The notes beneath the pieces were generated by a model. That model was not told the DNA's origin. It saw only the letters and a program-made list of their open reading frames with translations, and made no database searches. The position numbers and the translations under genes were made by a program. Below, in pieces: positions 8,979 through 20,305 of a DNA stretch of 26,781 nt. The number at the start of each line of letters is the position of its first letter. Within the stretch, counting starts at the first letter, position 1. Origin of the DNA: a virus; the IMG/VR virus record IMGVR_UViG_3300042564_000380, positions 1 through 26,781 of that record; one strand, 5' to 3'.

Positions 8979-9055
8979 GGTGCCATAGCTCAGCTGGATA
9001 GAGCAAGAGCCTTCTAAGCTCTAGGTCGTAGGTTCGAATCCTACTGGCATCACCA
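8979..9055 (+). tRNA. tRNA-Arg (anticodon UCU)
   Basis: A complete 77-base cloverleaf: acceptor GGTGCCA pairing with TGGCATC (one G-T pair), D-arm with AGCTCAGCTGGATAGAGC, anticodon stem AGAGC/GCTCT around CTTCTAA with anticodon TCT (9013-9015), T-arm GTAGG-TTCGAAT-CCTAC, discriminator A and encoded CCA. It reads AGA codons, which are used often in this AT-rich genome (many lysine- and arginine-rich internal proteins) and are rare in many bacteria. It has its own promoter and is followed by a T-run (9056-9060). Confidence 0.97.
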
Positions 9056-9076: not shown

Positions 9077-9448
9077 ATGACTGAACAAACTGAAACACAA
9101 GAATTGAAATTGAAGTTGGTTGCAACCACGCTGGTATGGACCAATGCAGGAACCGAAGACATGCCTCTGTGGAGAGCAACTGGTGGTAAGGAATATGTTA
9201 TTGCTCGGTTTGATTACGAACCAACACTACCAGAGATTGGTAAGGTAATGGATTCTAAGCGACACATGATTGAGAATCATTATCCACAACTCCACGAAAC
9301 TCTTTCGGGGTGGCAACTGTATCTTGACGAAACAATGACACATAATGAATACATGCAGTATCACTTGACGCAATCGGTGGACTTTCCTGCGACTGACTTG
9401 ACCATCGTTGATGCCTCCGAGGAGATGGCGGGAATTGTCGCGCAATAA
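9077..9448 (+). CDS. Hypothetical protein
   Basis: A 123-residue soluble protein, MTEQTETQELKLKL..., with an AAGAGG ribosome site eight bases upstream. I recognise no family. It is mildly acidic, with neither signal peptide nor membrane segment. It lies between the tRNA and a glycosyltransferase whose likely start overlaps its 3' end, suggesting joint translation. Codon use resembles the neighbours, so I regard it as a real gene. Confidence 0.75.
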   Translation: MTEQTETQELKLKLVATTLVWTNAGTEDMPLWRATGGKEYVIARFDYEPTLPEIGKVMDSKRHMIENHYPQLHETLSGWQLYLDETMTHNEYMQYHLTQSVDFPATDLTIVDASEEMAGIVAQ

Positions 9449-10154
9449 CATAACAATAATTCACACGTATTACAATGAAAGATCCTATCTCGAAACTCAG
9501 ATCGAGAGATGGAACAACTACAATACTCCAGTAAATATTATATTAATTGATGACGGGTCTCAGATAGAACCTGCAGAAAATGTTCTTAGCGAACACACAT
9601 TAAATGATAATATTAATTTTTCATTGTATAGAGTTACTGAAGATATCGGATTCAATGGTCATGGGTGTCGCAATCTTGGTGCAAGATTAGCAAAATCTAA
9701 CTGGTTATTGTTTCTAGATATAGATTACACATTACAACCATCCGATCTCAAAAGATTGCAAACCGAAACCCTCGATCTAAATACTTGGTATGAAATGAAT
9801 GCCAAGTTTAAAGGTCGAGGGGATTCGTATATGGCATTAAATCAATTCATGATACCCAGAAAACTATTCTTAGATTCTGGTGGATATGATGAATCTTTCA
9901 CACCATTTCATCACGGAGATCGTGAATTTTTATCTCAACTCGAACGTGATTACCAAAAGATTAATCTAGATTGGATGTATCTAACGTGTCGTCGTGGTGG
10001 TCGAAAAGCAAGAGTAGATGATACACTTACAATTCCAGTTTATGACGACGAGAACATGTTAATATATACTCCGCGATTTGATGTAGAATCTATTGTGCGC
10101 AAAGATACTAAATTGAATTTTACATGGGAAGAAATTGTTATAAATAGGGGGTAA
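9435..10154 (+). CDS. GT-A fold glycosyltransferase (family 2-like)
   Basis: About 239 residues from a TTG at 9435 (MSRNNITIIHTYYNER) behind AGGAGA (9420-9425); longer starts at 9408/9411 exist but would add only residues unlike the family. Features of the GT-A nucleotide-sugar fold are visible: strand VNIILIDDGS, the RNLGARLAKSNWLLFLDIDYTL stretch with a DxD motif (DID) for metal and sugar nucleotide, and a late GGYDESFTPFHHGDREFLSQL acceptor-side region. The enzyme should transfer a sugar to an unknown acceptor: phage DNA, a virion protein or host surface glycan. It closes the early segment, and a late promoter box sits in its last codons. Confidence 0.88.
   Translation: MSRNNITIIHTYYNERSYLETQIERWNNYNTPVNIILIDDGSQIEPAENVLSEHTLNDNINFSLYRVTEDIGFNGHGCRNLGARLAKSNWLLFLDIDYTLQPSDLKRLQTETLDLNTWYEMNAKFKGRGDSYMALNQFMIPRKLFLDSGGYDESFTPFHHGDREFLSQLERDYQKINLDWMYLTCRRGGRKARVDDTLTIPVYDDENMLIYTPRFDVESIVRKDTKLNFTWEEIVINRG
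10139..10146 (+). promoter_or_regulatory. T4-type late promoter box before the virion block
   Basis: Exact TATAAATA followed by GGGGG, 26 bases ahead of the ATG at 10173 and overlapping the end of the glycosyltransferase gene. In T4 this single box is bound by gp55 sigma. Its position at the switch from enzymes to virion genes supports the call. Confidence 0.7.
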
Positions 10155-10172
10155 CATTATAATAGGATCTCC

Positions 10173-11291
10173 ATGCAAAGTTTCTTATCATTCCTTTCCG
10201 AAGCAGCAATTCTTCACATTGAGCATCCATCCGATAGATTATTTGATGGACCACAACCAGCAAAGCATGCGCTCAAAACACTGAAGCAGGTTTCTGCCAG
10301 CAAAGCACCAACCATGACTCGCAAGATTGATGACAGAATGTCATTCAATGTTATTCGCAGAGCAGATGGTAAAGTTGGTGTTAAGTATAAGGGAACAGGT
10401 TCCTCTTACAATTTCAGCGAACAAGATATTGAAGACCAACATAGTCATAAACAATATCTCGCACATCCTCTAAAACTTCTCCTAAAGCATCTCCCTAAAG
10501 TTATTCCGCATACTCCAGGCGAGTATCAGGGCGGATACATGTCGGATCGTGAATCCAGAGAGCATGAGAATGGAAAGATTTCTCATACACCAAACACAAT
10601 TAAATATGAGACAGATGCCAATAGTCCTGAAGGCAAGGCACTTGCTAAATCTAAAGTAAGTGCTGTCATTCACACTAAGATTACTCCTGCTGGTGCAAGA
10701 CCACTAACAAGTTTGGCAGGATTTAACAATCACCCTGACGTTCATCTTGTTCAACACCTTGTGTCAAAAGACCACGCAGTTATTCCGAAAGAACATAAGT
10801 CGAAAGCAGATGAACATCTGAAAAAGGCAGAACAAATGATGGCGTCACATACATATGACCATCATGTTGGACACGAACAAACACTTCGCCAGTATATCAA
10901 CTCGACATTGTCAACTAATGATACACCTTCGACTCAAGGGTATAAGAGTTATCTTACGAAGTGGCATCAGAAAAAGATTGATGCAGTTAAAACTGACAAG
11001 ACGAAGGTCGCTAAAAAGAAGGTGTTGGATGATGCGATTGATCATGTTTCTAAACACCAAAAACAATTCAACGACACCTTAGAAATTCATCACCACTTGC
11101 AGCAAGCAACTAATCATCTTTCGAGAGGATTGGATTCTTCTGGTGCAGGTGGTTTCAGTACATCTATCGCAGGTGAAGCAGCAGGTGGCGAAGGTCACGT
11201 CTATAATGGACTGAAGGTTGTTGACCGCCAAGGATTCTCAGCAGCAAATCGTGCTCGTAGTGAAATGTTCAAGGCGAGCAAAGGGCAATGA
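10173..11291 (+). CDS. Putative virion-packaged ligase-like nucleotidyltransferase with capsid-targeting leader
   Basis: 372 residues. Residues 1-10, MQSFLSFLSE, followed by A, copy the T4 internal-protein leader (MKTYQEFIAE|A), with an L-x-E cleavage point for the prohead protease. The body resembles a family common in marine T4-like phages (probably the one called DUF6267): HIEHPSDRLFDG, TRKIDDRMSF, GEYQGGYM (116-123) and SAVIHTKI (163-170). K51-I-D-D-R resembles motif I (KxDG) of ATP/NAD-dependent ligases and capping enzymes, so K51 could be adenylated; this is my inference. The C-terminal half is His- and Lys-rich and helical. The stop overlaps the next gene (ATGA), itself a nucleotidyltransferase. 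Confidence 0.7.
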   Translation: MQSFLSFLSEAAILHIEHPSDRLFDGPQPAKHALKTLKQVSASKAPTMTRKIDDRMSFNVIRRADGKVGVKYKGTGSSYNFSEQDIEDQHSHKQYLAHPLKLLLKHLPKVIPHTPGEYQGGYMSDRESREHENGKISHTPNTIKYETDANSPEGKALAKSKVSAVIHTKITPAGARPLTSLAGFNNHPDVHLVQHLVSKDHAVIPKEHKSKADEHLKKAEQMMASHTYDHHVGHEQTLRQYINSTLSTNDTPSTQGYKSYLTKWHQKKIDAVKTDKTKVAKKKVLDDAIDHVSKHQKQFNDTLEIHHHLQQATNHLSRGLDSSGAGGFSTSIAGEAAGGEGHVYNGLKVVDRQGFSAANRARSEMFKASKGQ

Positions 11292-11899
11292 GCGAAACAC
11301 ATCACTTGACTATAGGTAGATTCGCGCCTGTTCATGCTGGACATGCGCTTATGATCAACCATGTTTTAAATGCAGCAAGACAAGACAATGCACATCATAC
11401 TATTCTTACTACTGCAACACATGATGGTAATAAAAATCCATTAACTCCAGATGTCAAAGTCAAACATCTAAAGCGTGCATTTCCTTCTGCAAATATTGAA
11501 GCAATGAGCAAGGGTGCTCCAACTATACTCCATCACTTGTCTAAATTGCACAGTCAAGGTGTGAAGAATATCGTTGTTCATGCTGGATCTGATAGAGCGC
11601 ACGAATACCACGCATTAATACACAAGTATAATGGTGTCGAAAGTCGCCATGGTCATTACAATTTTGATTCGATCAAAGTTAAGACTGTCGGTGGAACTAG
11701 AACTGATGCTGATGAGGGCGTCGCTGGTGCATCCGCAACTAAGATGCGCAAGGCAGCATCTTCTGGTGATGAAAAAACTTTTCATTCAATGGCACCAAGT
11801 TCTATGTCCAAACCGCATAAGCATGAGATGTATAAAGATGTTCGTCGTGGTCTTGGGATCCAAGAGTCAGTTACATTCAAACAATTTCTAGGAATCTAA
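11288..11899 (+). CDS. HxGH nucleotidyltransferase (cytidylyltransferase/NMNAT-like)
   Basis: 203 residues. The N-terminus has the HxGH superfamily pattern: TIGRFAPVHAGHALMI with H16-A-G-H19, and a later GASATKMR (148-154) that corresponds to the ISxTxxR motif. Between them, IVVHAGSDRA fits a nucleotide-binding strand. The superfamily moves NMP groups from NTPs to substrates such as NMN, phosphopantetheine or glycerol-3-phosphate; the substrate here cannot be read. The last residues, ESVTFKQFLGI, resemble the core of the head-targeting leader but at the C-terminus. It is coupled to the preceding ligase-like gene by ATGA and probably works with it. Confidence 0.8.
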   Translation: MSETHHLTIGRFAPVHAGHALMINHVLNAARQDNAHHTILTTATHDGNKNPLTPDVKVKHLKRAFPSANIEAMSKGAPTILHHLSKLHSQGVKNIVVHAGSDRAHEYHALIHKYNGVESRHGHYNFDSIKVKTVGGTRTDADEGVAGASATKMRKAASSGDEKTFHSMAPSSMSKPHKHEMYKDVRRGLGIQESVTFKQFLGI

Positions 11900-12751: not shown

Positions 12752-13264
12752 ATGTTCGGTATGATCCCATTACCATATAAGTTACTGGCAGGTGTTGCTT
12801 TAATACTTGGTGTGTTTGTGTTTGGTTACATGAAGGGATCTGCTCATGCTGAGTTGGAACTGCAAAGATTTGCTGCTAAGAATGCAACATTAACTGCAGA
12901 TATGGAAAAGAAAAATTCAGAGATCTCCACCGAAGTGGTGACTCAATATGTTGACCGTGTAAATACAATTAGGGAAAAAGAATATGTCTATCGCGATATC
13001 GCCAAAACTGTTGTGCCTTCTCAGTCTGTCCTTTCTAATGGTTGGGTGTTCACGCACGACATTAGTGCCACAGGCAGTAATGCCGACGCCACCAGAAGTT
13101 CTGATGCGTCCCCCTCAGGTATTGCAGACAATCAAGCCCTCTTCACCATCGTCGGAAACTACGCAACCTGTCAAGCAAACGCCGAGCAATTGATTGCTCT
13201 TCAGAAATGGATTGCGGATAACAAGACAGCGATCGACGAACTAAACAAGAAAGCGAAAAAGTAA
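12752..13264 (+). CDS. Rz: Inner-membrane spanin subunit, Rz-like
   Basis: 170 residues: a short cytoplasmic N-terminus, one membrane segment (about residues 9-27, LLAGVALILGVFVFGYM), then a charged periplasmic helix with coiled-coil character (ADMEKKNSEISTEVVTQYVDRVNTIREKEYVYRDI) and a C-terminal helix. This is the i-spanin layout: it bridges the periplasm with the Rz1 lipoprotein and helps fuse inner and outer membranes at the last step of lysis. Decisive support is the embedded lipoprotein gene in the +1 frame (12984-13193). An AGAGGAAA ribosome site (12740-12747) precedes the ATG. Confidence 0.88.
   Translation: MFGMIPLPYKLLAGVALILGVFVFGYMKGSAHAELELQRFAAKNATLTADMEKKNSEISTEVVTQYVDRVNTIREKEYVYRDIAKTVVPSQSVLSNGWVFTHDISATGSNADATRSSDASPSGIADNQALFTIVGNYATCQANAEQLIALQKWIADNKTAIDELNKKAKK
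12984..13193 (+). CDS. Rz1: Outer-membrane spanin lipoprotein, Rz1-like, embedded in Rz
   Basis: A 69-residue gene wholly inside Rz in the +1 frame. It encodes a lipoprotein signal (MSIAISPKLLCLLSLSFLMVGC with Cys22 as lipidation site; the lipobox LMVGC is slightly unusual) and a short proline-rich mature part (PQAVMPTPPEVLMRPPQVL). That is the standard o-spanin form. An AGGGA site (12971-12975) lies eight bases ahead of the ATG. Nested Rz1 genes are known from lambda; the chance of such a signal peptide, lipobox and Pro-rich tail arising as a shadow in exactly this place is small. Confidence 0.85.
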   Translation: MSIAISPKLLCLLSLSFLMVGCSRTTLVPQAVMPTPPEVLMRPPQVLQTIKPSSPSSETTQPVKQTPSN

Positions 13265-15171
13265 TGGCAGAAAAAAAGTATATCGGTAAACCAGGAAAAC
13301 AAGACGATCCTTGCTGGAAGGGATACGAGATGGTAGGCATGAAGAAGAAGGGTGGACGCAAGGTTCCTAACTGTGTACCTGAAGCAACCGATATTATTGC
13401 CAAAGCAAAGGCAGCAGTTGCAAAAAAAGCAGGTGCCAAACTAAAGATGGATCCAGATACTGGAACGCCTGATCATTTTACTGCTGCGATGCGTCGTAAA
13501 AAAGGTTTACCAGAAGAGGCAGATTCTAAGAAGTATCCTAGAAAGGGATTTCCTGAACCTGGAGACTATGGTTATCACCCAAATCCTGGTCTGAAACCAC
13601 AAGAGAGCGACAAAGATGAAGATATGGATGTCGCATACAAGAAAGCAACCGAGAAAGAGGGTCGCAAACCATTGAACGCAAAGATTACTGAGGGTGTGAC
13701 TAATCCAGAAATCAAGAAAGCATATGCTGATCTTATAAAAACTCCTAGTGGTTCTGCTGAGCGCAAATCTGCTATCCGTCGTTACAAGAGTCTTCGTCAG
13801 AATGCTGTCAAGGAAGAATCGGAACTCGAAGAAGCGCATGGCATGTGGAAGGTAGACTTCCCTAAGCAACATGCTGGTAAGGCAGTCGCTGCTGGTTCGG
13901 TTCACGTTAAGGCGCAGAACACTGCTCATGCTCACAAGGTTGCTGCTAAGAGAGTCGGTGTTGATCATAAGATGTTCAAGTCGAAGGTTACTAAGTCGAG
14001 CATTCTTCCAGAGGGCGTTCAACTTGATGAAGTCTTAGGTAAGGACAACGAATGGGGTCGCCCAGAACTACGCAAGAAGTTTGCTGCTATGACTCCAGGA
14101 CAAGAAGGTATGACAGCAGATAAGATCCCATCTTTCGATCCACGTTATGACGATGTAACTACTCAATACTGCGGTGGTATCAGAGAAGGTTATCTTGCTG
14201 AGATTTCTGCCAAGGGTGCAGAGGCACGTGCTAAGTTCCAAACAAAAGTCAGACAAACACTGGCAGATCCTAAGAATATTGCACGAGCAAAGAAAACTCT
14301 TGCTAAGAAAAAAGAAGCAGAGAAAGCAAAAGAACCACCACATCTTGTAATGCAACTGCGCAAAGCAGTAAGCATCGGTTCTAAGGTTCACTTCCAAGAT
14401 GGTCAACATCACACAATTGCTCCTAACCATGCTGATGTATTCATGAACAAGTATAACTCTGCCAAGTCTTCTATTGAAAAAGAAGCACTACAGAAACGTG
14501 CTCACAAATCTCACTCTGAGTTTATGAGAACAATTGCTGAAGAAGCGCATGAGAATTGCGGAACTCCTGACTGCTGCCAGATGTGCGACACCGCAGAAAT
14601 GGGAACTCACCACGTTGATTCCTATGAAGCGCACAAGGGTTCGGGCGATCAGATCTCCCCAGTAATTTCACATGATGATGAAGACATCCGCTTCCAAGAT
14701 TTCGATGAAGAAGCATTCGAAAAAGAACTAGAAGCAGATGTCCTTGCTCTTTCGTGGGATGATTTAGTAGATCTCTATGACGAAGATGAAATTGAATATG
14801 ATGAGTCGCCTGATGAAGAAGGCGAAGAACTAGAGGAAGGTATTACTCCTACTGGTCGTCTCAAGAAAAAATTCAATGCGATGCGCACAAAGAGTCGTCG
14901 TATGATGGCAAGAAATATTGCAATCAAGCGTGTGTCTTCACCAGAAAAACTTAAATCTAGATCAATTCGTGCTGCTCGACGCATGGTATACAAGAGACTG
15001 TTGCGCAACAGAGATATTTCTACTGTTTCGGCAACAGAAAAGACACGTCTTGAAGGACAGATAAAGCGCATGGCACCTATGGTTGCTCGTCTATCTGTTA
15101 GAGTCATGCCAGCAGTTCGTAAACTTGAGCAATCAAGAATCAAGAACAGCAGAACCAGAAAGAAAAAGTAA
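13264..15171 (+). CDS. Large basic mosaic protein, probable processed internal head polyprotein
   Basis: 635 residues with distinct blocks: a head block DPCWKGYEMVGMKKKGG (15-31) ending in NCVPEA; a Lys-rich linker; a block at 191-250 starting AHGMWKVDFP; a block at 257-313; a Lys-rich coil (314-425); a Cys cluster (C432, C437, C438, C441); an acidic stretch (470-525); and a very basic C-terminal block (526-635) rich in Arg, Lys and Met. The borders carry I/L-x-E sites: ITE143|G, LEE190|A, LPE250|G, LDE256|V, LAE313|I, IAE426|E and LEE525|G. In T4 such sites are cut by gp21 in the prohead. I infer a polyprotein that yields DNA-associated peptides in the head. Overlaps Rz end by one base and the next gene by one base. 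Confidence 0.65.
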   Translation: MAEKKYIGKPGKQDDPCWKGYEMVGMKKKGGRKVPNCVPEATDIIAKAKAAVAKKAGAKLKMDPDTGTPDHFTAAMRRKKGLPEEADSKKYPRKGFPEPGDYGYHPNPGLKPQESDKDEDMDVAYKKATEKEGRKPLNAKITEGVTNPEIKKAYADLIKTPSGSAERKSAIRRYKSLRQNAVKEESELEEAHGMWKVDFPKQHAGKAVAAGSVHVKAQNTAHAHKVAAKRVGVDHKMFKSKVTKSSILPEGVQLDEVLGKDNEWGRPELRKKFAAMTPGQEGMTADKIPSFDPRYDDVTTQYCGGIREGYLAEISAKGAEARAKFQTKVRQTLADPKNIARAKKTLAKKKEAEKAKEPPHLVMQLRKAVSIGSKVHFQDGQHHTIAPNHADVFMNKYNSAKSSIEKEALQKRAHKSHSEFMRTIAEEAHENCGTPDCCQMCDTAEMGTHHVDSYEAHKGSGDQISPVISHDDEDIRFQDFDEEAFEKELEADVLALSWDDLVDLYDEDEIEYDESPDEEGEELEEGITPTGRLKKKFNAMRTKSRRMMARNIAIKRVSSPEKLKSRSIRAARRMVYKRLLRNRDISTVSATEKTRLEGQIKRMAPMVARLSVRVMPAVRKLEQSRIKNSRTRKKK

Positions 15172-15458
15172 TGTTATCTTTCAAAGAATTTATCACTGAA
15201 GCAGCAGTTGACGGTAAAGGTCATAAGAGTTCCACTGGTGGTCTAACCCAGAAGGGTCGTGACTATTACAACAACAAGTATGGCGGCAATCTACAGGCAC
15301 CAGTAACAACCAAACCTTCTAAGTTGAAGGCAGGCAGCAAAGCAGCGAATCGTCGCAAGTCTTTCTGTGCTAGAATGTCTGGCGTCGATGGACCAATGAA
15401 GGATGAAAAGGGTCGTCCGACTCGCAAGGCACTAGCACTAAGAAAATGGAATTGTTAA
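15171..15458 (+). CDS. Small basic internal head protein with capsid-targeting leader
   Basis: 95 residues. Residues 1-10 are MLSFKEFITE, followed by A: same length and pattern as T4 internal-protein leaders, with I-T-E|A as a good prohead-protease site. The remainder is basic, with GGLTQKGRDYYNNKYGG and the hallmark RKSFCARMSGVDGPMKDEKG, ending in RKALALRKWNC. That C-terminal block is a conserved phage family (DUF6321, as I recall) of unknown function. Two Cys (one in FCAR, one terminal) might bind metal. The mature 85-residue piece would be carried inside the capsid and perhaps injected. Its ATG overlaps the stop of the mosaic protein (TAATG). Confidence 0.82.
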   Translation: MLSFKEFITEAAVDGKGHKSSTGGLTQKGRDYYNNKYGGNLQAPVTTKPSKLKAGSKAANRRKSFCARMSGVDGPMKDEKGRPTRKALALRKWNC

Positions 15459-15459
15459 T

Positions 15460-15897
15460 ATGGATGAATTGAACACATCAATGAAGATAGTGCTCGCAAA
15501 TACTTTTGCGATGTATTTCAAAGCACATGGGCATCACTGGAATGTAGAAGGCAAAGACTTCTCCCAAATGCACGACTTCTTTTCGAACATCTATGAAGAA
15601 CTATTCGCTGCGGTTGATCAGATTGCTGAGCAGATTCGTGCACTAGATGATTATGTGCCTTATGGTCTAGATACTATGTCCAGTATTGCTACCATCAAAG
15701 ATTCATCAATCAATGGTAACAGTATTCCGTCGATGCTTCAAGATTTAATGGATGCCAACGCATCAGTCATCGAAGCATTGAATGCTGCGCATAAACTGGC
15801 GGAAGCAGAAGGTAACAGAGGTCTTGTTAATCATATTGAAGGGCGTCTTGATGTTCATGCTAAGCATGGATGGATGCTTCTCGCAACCTCAAAGTAA
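15460..15897 (+). CDS. Dps/ferritin-like ferroxidase
   Basis: 145 residues, a four-helix ferritin-like protein of the Dps family. The ferroxidase ligands of E. coli Dps map well: H26 (HHWNVEG), H38 (12 residues on), D53 and E57 (D-x3-E in AVDQIAEQIRALD); the position equal to Asp67 is Ser42. Dps proteins form 12-mers that oxidise and store iron with peroxide, and some bind DNA. It is shorter than E. coli Dps (167) and lacks its Lys-rich N-terminal tail, so DNA binding is doubtful. Found one base after the internal-protein gene and just ahead of a late promoter box, it is likely made late and may be packaged or protect DNA during assembly; both are inference. Confidence 0.9.
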   Translation: MDELNTSMKIVLANTFAMYFKAHGHHWNVEGKDFSQMHDFFSNIYEELFAAVDQIAEQIRALDDYVPYGLDTMSSIATIKDSSINGNSIPSMLQDLMDANASVIEALNAAHKLAEAEGNRGLVNHIEGRLDVHAKHGWMLLATSK

Positions 15898-19263: not shown

Positions 19264-19626
19264 ATGCTAGAACTAAATAATGATACCTTCTTGATTTATG
19301 CTATTAAAAATTATGACAATCCCAGTTGTAATGGGATGCCTGATTTAGAAGAAGACATGAAGAGATTCAAATATATAAAACGATTGTTTAAGAGATATGA
19401 AAAAACTGATGTCTTGAATGAACGTTTGATATTGAATCACATAATTGTTTTATATAATGTGTTTGGTAATGCCGCAACTAAGATGCTGTTTTACAAAATA
19501 GAAGAGAAATATTGGCACTACTTGAAAACATTCCTTGTTTTTCTCAATAGAATGACAAGTAGTTCTATGGTTGAGGTCAACTTAGACCATAAAATAGTTA
19601 CAAAGTTAAGGGAACTTAATGTCTAG
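19264..19626 (+). CDS. Conserved phage protein of unknown function
   Basis: 120 residues from the ATG at 19264, which lies one base after the previous stop; a longer in-frame start at 19159 would overlap the preceding gene by 104 bases and adds nothing recognisable. The sequence is helical and has TFLIYAIKNYDNPSCNGMPDLEEDMKRFKYIKRLFKRY, then RLILNHIIVLYNVFGNAATKML. I recall very similar short proteins in marine T4-like phages, always beside the next gene (MSRFVDAL...). No function is known to me. It overlaps that next gene by eight bases, indicating coupled translation. Confidence 0.82.
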   Translation: MLELNNDTFLIYAIKNYDNPSCNGMPDLEEDMKRFKYIKRLFKRYEKTDVLNERLILNHIIVLYNVFGNAATKMLFYKIEEKYWHYLKTFLVFLNRMTSSSMVEVNLDHKIVTKLRELNV

Positions 19627-20305
19627 ATTTGTAGATGCACTGATAACATATCGTATTCTAAGGTTGTTGACTACACCTTTCGATCAACAGGATGCATTTC
19701 GTCTAGGATTGATCGATAAGCATGGTAATCGATTGAAGAAAGAGAATGAACTAAATACTACTGAAGAACAAGAGGCGTATAGTCTGCTTCATAGAATGGT
19801 ATTTAGATTGAAACGAATCATCGAGAAGGTTCCTATGGACAATAAGAACTTCCTTTCATTTGCTACTGCTGTTGCATTAGTAAGAGAAGGTATAGAATAT
19901 GATGATGAAATATTAGAGGAAGTTTTTTATATGACACAAGAACGCCAAGATGTCAAGGAATTGGCAGAAGAATTAGAATCAGGTAAGATGCTTTCGTTCA
20001 AGGGATTTCTTGAAGAAAAGATTAACATGAAGTCTGCGTCAATGGGTGATGTCATCACTGACTTTAAAAAGTCAGATGCCCCTCAGTTTAAAGGTAAGAG
20101 CAAAGAGAAGCGTCGCCAGATGGCAATCGCTGCCAAACTTGCCAACGAAGAAATGGGCGTTGCTGGTGGTGGAGTTGCTGGGATTGGTATTCCGCATCCA
20201 ACAAAAGCAAACCAAGCAGAACCTGGACTTACCAAGAGTCAGCAGAAAAAATACAAAAAGAAAAACAAAGCAGGTGTACCTGCTGTATTGATTAGAAGGA
20301 AGTAA
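19619..20305 (+). CDS. Conserved phage protein with an internal capsid-targeting-like motif
   Basis: 228 residues in two parts. Residues 1-122 (MSRFVDALITYRILRLLTTPFDQQDAFRLGLIDKHG...) are a helical domain of a conserved marine T4-like phage family. Residue 124 is Met, followed by LSFKGFLEE, so 124-133 repeat the ten-residue head leader (with L-E-E as cleavage point). After it comes a basic part with DAPQFKGKSKEKRRQMAIAAKLA, Gly-rich GGGVAGIGIP and a Lys-rich end. Either the protease cuts the full protein at E133, or translation can start at M124 (codon at 19988) to make a 105-residue internal protein. The upstream site there (AGGTAAG) is weak. Likely a head protein; function unknown. Confidence 0.75.
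   Translation: MSRFVDALITYRILRLLTTPFDQQDAFRLGLIDKHGNRLKKENELNTTEEQEAYSLLHRMVFRLKRIIEKVPMDNKNFLSFATAVALVREGIEYDDEILEEVFYMTQERQDVKELAEELESGKMLSFKGFLEEKINMKSASMGDVITDFKKSDAPQFKGKSKEKRRQMAIAAKLANEEMGVAGGGVAGIGIPHPTKANQAEPGLTKSQQKKYKKKNKAGVPAVLIRRK

Follow-up and report, generated by a model that had tools for sequence, protein, structure and literature searches.

The window analysed here, a 26.8-kb (26,781-nucleotide) fragment of a T4-like water phage constituting positions 1 to 26,781 of IMG/VR virus record IMGVR_UViG_3300042564_000380, contains a pair of genes in which the stop codon of the first overlaps the start codon of the second in an ATGA (Table 1). The first codes for a member of the Pfam family DUF6267 and the second for an adenylyltransferase of the HIGH superfamily, referred to below as the partner. 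A sequence-only reading of this DNA had proposed that the two are coupled nucleotidyltransferases; both open reading frames, their overlap and the motifs on which it drew (K51-I-D-D-R, GEYQGGYM and SAVIHTKI in the first product, HAGH and GASATKMR in the second) are all present. Based on the residues conserved across the family and on a structural model, we propose that the first product is a ligase-like, previously unrecognised relative of the covalent nucleotidyltransferases, its activity being a prediction.

The first product matches PF19782 with an E-value of 3.9e-38 (132.2 bits versus a gathering score of 27), residues 14-359 aligning with positions 2-371 of the 376 in the profile. Pfam assigns this family no function, and our examination of the literature found no paper naming it. 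We gathered relatives from IMG/VR and from phage records and aligned 83 diverse members, those outside the clade of the window protein sharing mostly only 21-32% identity with it. Despite this divergence, H18, K51, D53, K73, P140, N141, Y145 and H167 are invariant in all 83 sequences, as are N243, E340, G341, K348, R352, F355 and N359 in the C-terminal part. Along the chain the motifs follow the order I (KxD[G/D]), III (QG[D/G]), IIIa (...HT), IV (EGxV) and V (KxVxR), with most relatives displaying the canonical KWDG in motif I and QGD in motif III. The window protein retains the motif I lysine with an aspartate two residues on, the E-G of motif IV and the lysine of motif V, but has D54 in place of the motif I glycine (KxDG) and G121 in place of the motif III acidic residue; as it thus departs from the superfamily at two canonical positions, we call it ligase-like rather than a canonical member. 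The presence of K51 and D53 in every one of these divergent relatives lifts the earlier recognition of covalent nucleotidyltransferase motifs beyond chance and bears out the expectation that K51 would be conserved in homologs. SAVIHTKI, formerly taken for motif IV, is instead motif IIIa, the actual motifs IV (GEGHV) and V (KVVDR) being situated in the C-terminal part. In Pfam searches with the 83 members DUF6267 was the sole consistent match: PF01068 was not among the matches listed, and a single member registered PF09511 (T4 RNA ligase 1), below its cut-off (E 0.017). A search of PDB sequences with the DUF6267 profile returned only chance helical matches.

The AlphaFold2 model computed from the 83-member alignment has a mean predicted local distance difference test score (pLDDT) of 91.1 and a predicted template modelling score of 0.86, with low confidence (pLDDT <50) only in the leader, residues 1-13. 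The order of strands and helices in the model is that of the ligase nucleotidyltransferase domain, and the best 50 PDB entries recovered with VIA-align are all polynucleotide ligases, headed by the Naegleria RNA ligase NgrRnl of the Rnl5 family (Z 8.1, 181 residues, 3.8 Å), with the yeast-type tRNA ligase Trl1 and human LIG1 (both Z 7.2) and T4 Rnl1 and Rnl2 (6.4) further down. Capping enzymes do not appear among these best 50 entries, which excludes nothing. The model hence points at a moderate level (Z up to 8.1) to a nucleotidyltransferase fold, and the structural comparison suggested by the sequence-only reading yielded a ligase-like fold rather than an unrelated one. In the comparison with viral models, the family's own members ranked ahead of a protein annotated as a phage RNA ligase (E 5e-3). 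Motifs IIIa and IV are separated by a helical insertion, and no OB domain follows motif V in the model, the chain ending about 20 residues later as a single helix. Accordingly, of the two hallmarks of ATP-dependent DNA ligases, a PF01068 profile match and an OB fold after motif V, neither was found.

The two departures of the window protein prove to be reciprocal. Positions 54 and 121 are occupied by glycine and aspartate, respectively, in 66 of the 83 aligned members and by aspartate and glycine in the other 17, with no mixed cases. These 17, the clade of the window protein, are monophyletic with a support of 1.0 in the tree; since the exchange maps to a single fully supported branch, it represents one evolutionary event and not 17. 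We infer from this pattern that in the window clade a carboxylate closing motif I took the place of that in motif III.

The partner matches two PHROG 'cytidyltransferase' families, phrog_3041 (E 9e-45) and phrog_395 (E 2e-41). Its structural model (pLDDT 91.1) retrieves 53 Foldseek matches at E <= 0.001, comprising NMN/NaMN (nicotinamide mononucleotide and nicotinic acid mononucleotide) and phosphopantetheine adenylyltransferases, and VIA-align scores it at Z 15.0 with phosphopantetheine adenylyltransferase (PPAT) and 13.7 with NMN adenylyltransferase (NMNAT); going by the model, the fold fits coenzyme A- and NAD-type enzymes equally well. As claimed earlier for an HxGH nucleotidyltransferase, the HIGH fold is accompanied by the [HT]xGH and S-x-[ST]-K-x-R signatures of the NMNATs NadM and NadR. 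In NCBIfam and PDB profile searches the partner leans towards NMNAT, MJ0541 being the best match (E 0.017), with scores far below the curated cut-offs (23.4 bits versus 127 for NF002243 and 21.4 versus 341 for TIGR01526). The partner therefore shares signatures and fold with NMNAT (NadM, NadR) and PPAT (CoaD), and differs from them in its sub-cut-off scores and in a C-terminal head tag described below. We rejected the 'cytidyltransferase' annotation, which is probably wrong, the listed fold matches of the model being adenylyltransferases. In some records (e.g. MH107246, KY945241, KF156339 and PV261925) the HIGH gene is labelled ribonucleotide reductase A or tail fiber protein.

We then examined the gene neighborhoods of 171 distinct DUF6267 genes with sufficient downstream sequence. 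The HIGH partner is adjacent or fused to DUF6267 in 162 of these loci, as the next gene in 154 and as a fusion, in either order, in seven, the remaining locus being that of cyanophage S-SZBM1, which lies on the minus strand and was scored by hand; some loci had been retrieved with the partner as query, which introduces a mild bias into this count. The co-occurrence anticipated by the earlier reading hence extends to natural fusions. In one of these, a 1,043-residue chain (L138:1856-4987), an N-terminal HIGH domain and a C-terminal DUF6267 domain flank a stretch, AYDFDDT, whose motif reads as HAD-like. In some partners from the wider clade of the window, chains of 800-1,100 residues, the HIGH domain is followed by a P-loop kinase, with DUF5824 or DUF5661 sometimes present as well, and these look like multidomain packaged effectors. 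In P-SSM2 (record GU071092) the DUF6267 and HIGH genes are 100 kb apart (60608-61498 and 160150-161424), and the DUF6267 match is split in two pieces, suggesting partial loss of the domain.

Six other loci (L139, L151, L162, L167, L170 and L185) have no HIGH gene nearby and instead display an N-terminal Pol-beta-like domain fused to DUF6267, and the last three have neither. The Pol-beta-like domain (L139:3290-5056 and its five relatives) is conserved and bears the pattern GSTG...SGDLDLxVD...QTDFMF; it has no match in Pfam, PHROGs, NCBIfam or the PDB, and we read it from this pattern. Furthermore, matches to polynucleotide kinase families occur among the leader-tagged neighbors of DUF6267: one protein resembling a HAD phosphatase scores E 2.5e-6, and P-loop kinases score E 2e-6 and 1e-7. 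Phage RNA repair draws on a kinase, a phosphatase, a Pol-beta nucleotidyltransferase and a ligase. In particular, RNA ligases of phages have been described with RlaP Pol-beta nucleotidyltransferases as companions (PMC7824862). In other loci, the leader-tagged genes preceding DUF6267 show patterns like those of PD-(D/E)xK nucleases (D...ISHKAG, D...IEIK), for which Pfam returned nothing relevant and PHROGs only unknowns.

The sequence-only reading had also noted a T4-like head leader on the DUF6267 protein, and this is in the register of T4 IPIII: MQSFLSFLSE/A (the slash marking the cut) agrees with MKTYQEFIAE/A of T4 IPIII/IPII at the key positions, an aromatic residue at 4, F7, I/L8 and E10, and has the L/I-x-E cut site of T4-type internal head proteins. 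In T4, residues 4 and 7 of the leader serve in targeting and 8 and 10 in processing, with gp21 cleaving after L/I-x-E (PMC9026906). Such leaders are borne by 128 of 196 distinct DUF6267 genes, by 17% of their immediate upstream neighbors and by 1-6% of genes two to five positions away, as against 0.1% in shuffled sequences. The earlier reading had missed a second tag at the C-terminus of the partner, the only match of its kind in the window; partners of the window clade share the consensus VRRGxG[LI]xE/[AS]xSFKxFLG(I/L) and have no N-terminal leader. This tag is carried by 41 pairs of the D54 clade. In 62 pairs of the KWDG group both proteins have an N-terminal leader, whereas in 38 pairs of the KIDD group an N-terminal leader on DUF6267 is combined with a C-terminal tag on the partner; the occurrence of tags at opposite protein ends in sister groups argues for selection on the packaging of both proteins. 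The pair shares with T4 IPI-IPIII and Alt, the last of which is processed at both ends (PMC9026906), the ten-residue leader and the predicted cut after L/I-x-E, and is unlike these internal proteins in being made up of other kinds of enzymes and in the C-terminal position of the partner tag.

Proteins of the partner family have been reported from the virion proteomes of S-SM1 (PMC3037559), S-CREM2 (PMC10665884), S-SCSM1 (PMC9602691) and S-SZBM1 (PMC9146016), and from S-CBWM1 virions according to a citation in PMC10665884. In S-SZBM1 the partner, with the leader MRFRQFIIE/A, was detected in the virion and the leaderless DUF6267 protein is not in the virion list, a pattern that fits the leader rule and therefore predicts the packaging of leader-bearing DUF6267 proteins such as that of the window. 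The NMNAT-like or cytidylyltransferase proteins detected in cyanophage virions by mass spectrometry belong to the same family as the window partner, and in the literature on them we found no mention of a DUF6267 companion, ligase motifs or leaders. The earlier view that no such system had been described consequently holds for DUF6267 and its pairing, and not for virion-borne NMNAT-like proteins of cyanophages, which are already published.

The phyletic pattern was assessed in 13 complete genomes, nine of Kyanoviridae and four of Straboviridae. T4, KVP40, RB49 and Aeh1 have both PF01068 and PF09511 and lack DUF6267, while P-SSM4, P-SSM2, S-SSM5, S-RIM2, S-SZBM1, Sf-CH1b, C48C1, HTVC008M and Melnitz-3 have DUF6267 and lack PF01068, PF09511 and the NAD-dependent ligase PF01653; PF09414 was likewise not found in the six of these nine genomes in which it was sought. 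A review of cyanomyoviruses noted that they are without the g30 ligase and left as options unrecognised distant homologues or none (PMC2984593). We tentatively suggest, at somewhat less than even confidence, that DUF6267 is the apparently missing ligase of the T4-like cyanophages and their relatives, and that the window lineage moved the carboxylate and packaged the protein with its partner as an end-repair set injected before gene expression.

Taking these lines together, we propose, as a reading we judge slightly more probable than improbable, that the two proteins make up a nucleic-acid repair module carried in the virion, its activity being predicted. The DUF6267 protein, distantly related to the covalent nucleotidyltransferases and devoid of an OB domain, would most likely adenylylate itself on K51, a step we regard as very probable. 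It would then seal nucleic-acid ends, which we hold to be reasonably likely; the substrate might be RNA, e.g. tRNA cut by host defense nucleases, an assignment that falls a little short of probable, and DNA nicks are the unlikelier choice. The partner, whose role as a predicted adenylyltransferase is the weakest part of this account, may adenylylate a small cofactor such as NMN, recycling NMN if the ligase uses NAD, or a substrate of the same step. The leader at the N-terminus of DUF6267 and the tag at the C-terminus of the partner would draw both proteins into the prohead, where the prohead protease would remove these peptides; such packaging is highly probable for the window phage. Both proteins would subsequently enter the cell along with the DNA, ready ahead of phage gene expression, and we consider their injection likely. 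The DUF6267 protein resembles the RNA ligases (Rnl5/NgrRnl, Trl1, Rnl1 and Rnl2) in its motif order, its invariant lysines and glutamate, its predicted fold and its kinase-, phosphatase- and Pol-beta-like companions. It differs from them in the absence of significant sequence similarity and of an OB or known C-terminal domain, in the insertion between motifs IIIa and IV, in the head leader and, in the window clade, in the exchange of the motif I glycine and motif III aspartate.

Alternatively, DUF6267 could be the DNA ligase of Kyanoviridae-type phages, replacing T4 gp30 on nicks and Okazaki fragments, with a share packaged in leader-bearing phages to mend the entering genome. Its distribution is complementary to that of PF01068 in the 13 genomes, distant homologues were held possible for cyanomyoviruses lacking g30 (PMC2984593), the cyanophage DUF6267 genes sit in the replication block beside uvsX and the primase-helicase, and human LIG1 scores near the RNA ligases. 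Nevertheless, the distribution is just as complementary with Rnl1, one large fragment (G006) carries both DUF6267 and a DNA ligase, and the host ligase can serve in this capacity. While DUF6267 and the gp30-type enzyme share the superfamily fold, DUF6267 has no Pfam match to it, is paired with a HIGH adenylyltransferase and lacks the OB domain by which DNA ligases grip the nick, and its companions are RNA-repair-like. We consider this explanation unlikely.

The partner invites a different explanation, also raised in the sequence-only reading: as an NMNAT it could rebuild NAD after a host NAD-depleting defense, or supply an NAD-using DUF6267 enzyme and recycle its NMN. The lean of the profile matches to NMNAT and the compatible fold accord with this, as do the P-loop kinase that follows the HIGH domain in some partners, as in NadR, and the published guess of NMNAT for the cyanophage virion proteins (PMC10665884, PMC9602691). 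Yet all the NMNAT matches are far under their curated cut-offs, PPAT scores equally high, nothing in the DUF6267 protein resembles the Ia domain with which LigA binds NAD, and six loci dispense with the HIGH gene. Moreover, the window genes scanned include no gene for NAD salvage, NadV-like or otherwise. The proposal of NAD rebuilding gains no further pathway gene from the window, and we regard it as rather improbable. Among the same scanned genes, which are those of a fragment, we saw no phosphoribosyltransferase or ADP-ribose enzyme of the kind that accompanies the phage NAD reconstitution systems NadV-NadM and NARP1.

Still less probable is that the pair modifies a host macromolecule or metabolite after injection, with DUF6267 attaching a nucleotide to its target in a capping- or AMPylation-like reaction and the partner making the donor or a second modification. 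Covalent nucleotidyltransferase chemistry in a protein that lacks both an OB domain and a ligase-type C-terminal domain would suit such a role, and the packaging recalls that of the modifying enzyme Alt, which T4 injects (PMC9026906), but the listed fold neighbors are ligases and the companions end-healing-like. That both proteins are mainly prohead-core components with remnant catalytic sites, as their leaders, prohead-protease-like sites and the two changed catalytic positions of the window clade might suggest, is very hard to reconcile with the way every other catalytic residue stays invariant across a very large divergence, the reciprocal rather than random substitution and the retention of both active-site signatures in the partner.

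Several observations weigh against the proposed repair module itself. Foldseek searches of the PDB with the DUF6267 model were not significant (best E 0.11), though DNA and RNA ligases ranked first, and a Z of 8 is modest support for a fold. Profile comparisons by hhalign with T4 Rnl1 and Rnl2 were likewise not significant (E 0.043 and 0.19); the best local match fell on motif IV, EG(Y/H)V, both times, and did not do so in the HIGH-family control. With neither the glycine of motif I nor the carboxylate of motif III, the window clade could have an altered activity or have lost it. HIGH enzymes are, to our knowledge, not standard in RNA repair. The ligase/DUF6267 pattern, drawn from 13 genomes of two families, can reflect ancestry, and the co-occurrence in G006 also counts here. 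Finally, many cyanophage DUF6267 genes have no leader, and the DUF6267 protein was not found in any of the published cyanophage virion proteomes examined.

Table 1. Positions of the gene pair, its motifs and tags, and related features (plain coordinates refer to the window; L-numbers denote other DUF6267 loci)
Feature	Position	Strand	Basis
DUF6267 gene, 372 residues; predicted covalent nucleotidyltransferase (ligase-like)	10173..11291	+	PF19782, AlphaFold2 model, VIA-align
Head-targeting leader MQSFLSFLSE; predicted prohead-protease cut after E10 (L-S-E/A)	10173..10202	+	register of T4 IPIII
Motif I, K51-I-D53-D54 (KWDG in 66/83 relatives)	10323..10334	+	K51 and D53 83/83
Motif III, Q119-G-G121 (QGD in relatives)	10527..10535	+	within GEYQGGYM 116-123; carboxylate lost here
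Motif IIIa, SAVIHTKI (residues 162-169), H167 invariant	10656..10679	+	alignment; model strand 162-171
Helical insertion between IIIa and IV, residues 199-322 (~120)	10767..11138	+	model secondary structure
Motif IV, E340-G-H-V343 (GEGHV)	11190..11201	+	E340 and G341 83/83
Motif V, K348-V-V-D-R352	11214..11228	+	K348 and R352 83/83
ATGA overlap, stop codon of DUF6267 gene and start codon of partner	11288..11291	+	sequence
Predicted HIGH-superfamily adenylyltransferase, 203 residues; phage annotation 'cytidyltransferase'	11288..11899	+	phrog_3041, phrog_395, model
HxGH signature HAGH (residues 16-19)	11333..11344	+	R11, P14, H19 invariant in 47 relatives
GASATKMR signature (residues 147-154)	11726..11749	+	G147, S149, R154 invariant in 47 relatives
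C-terminal head-targeting tag of partner: I-Q-E cleavage site, SVTFKQFLGI, stop	11858..11899	+	clade conservation
95-residue protein with its own head leader MLSFKEFITE	15171..15458	+	leader match
Long multidomain HIGH partners of DUF6267	L079:6110-9439, L077:5256-8084, L074:6137-8743		
PD-(D/E)xK-like pattern genes	L198:2630-3637, L214:3019-3996, L194:1417-2244, L233:599-1408		motif inspection

In the window the pair is preceded by genes for a clamp loader, RegA, Hsp20, a family B DNA polymerase, UvsX, a DnaB-like helicase and a 2-oxoglutarate oxygenase, with a tRNA-Arg(TCT) gene (8979-9055) and a family 2 glycosyltransferase (9408-10154) just 5' of it; it is followed by lysis genes, primase, thymidylate synthase and MazG. 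The leader-bearing 95-residue protein listed in Table 1 has a C-terminal basic domain (KSFCARMSG...RKWNC), matches phrog_4689 and the ends of larger phage proteins, and is probably another packaged protein. At 15460-15897 is a 145-residue protein of Dps-like appearance that matches phrog_3636, annotated as a DNA binding protein, and has a weak match to a family of starvation-inducible regulators. At 13264-15171 is a charged protein of 635 residues with CWKGYEMVGMKKKGGRKVPNCVP near its start; similar stretches recur within the long HIGH-domain chains of L074 and L108, as well as in S-SZBM1_139, a protein detected in virions. Within the 228-residue open reading frame at 19619-20305, an in-frame methionine at 19988 begins a leader-like MLSFKGFLEE, either an internal start or a chance match.

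The analysis thus furnishes a testable function for an unnamed family present in at least 454 sequenced phages and in a dominant marine phage group, as well as a natural example of a head-targeting tag that has switched termini. If the proposal is true, it would answer the published question of an unrecognised ligase in the T4-like cyanophages (PMC2984593) and would show a myovirus injecting repair enzymes with its DNA.

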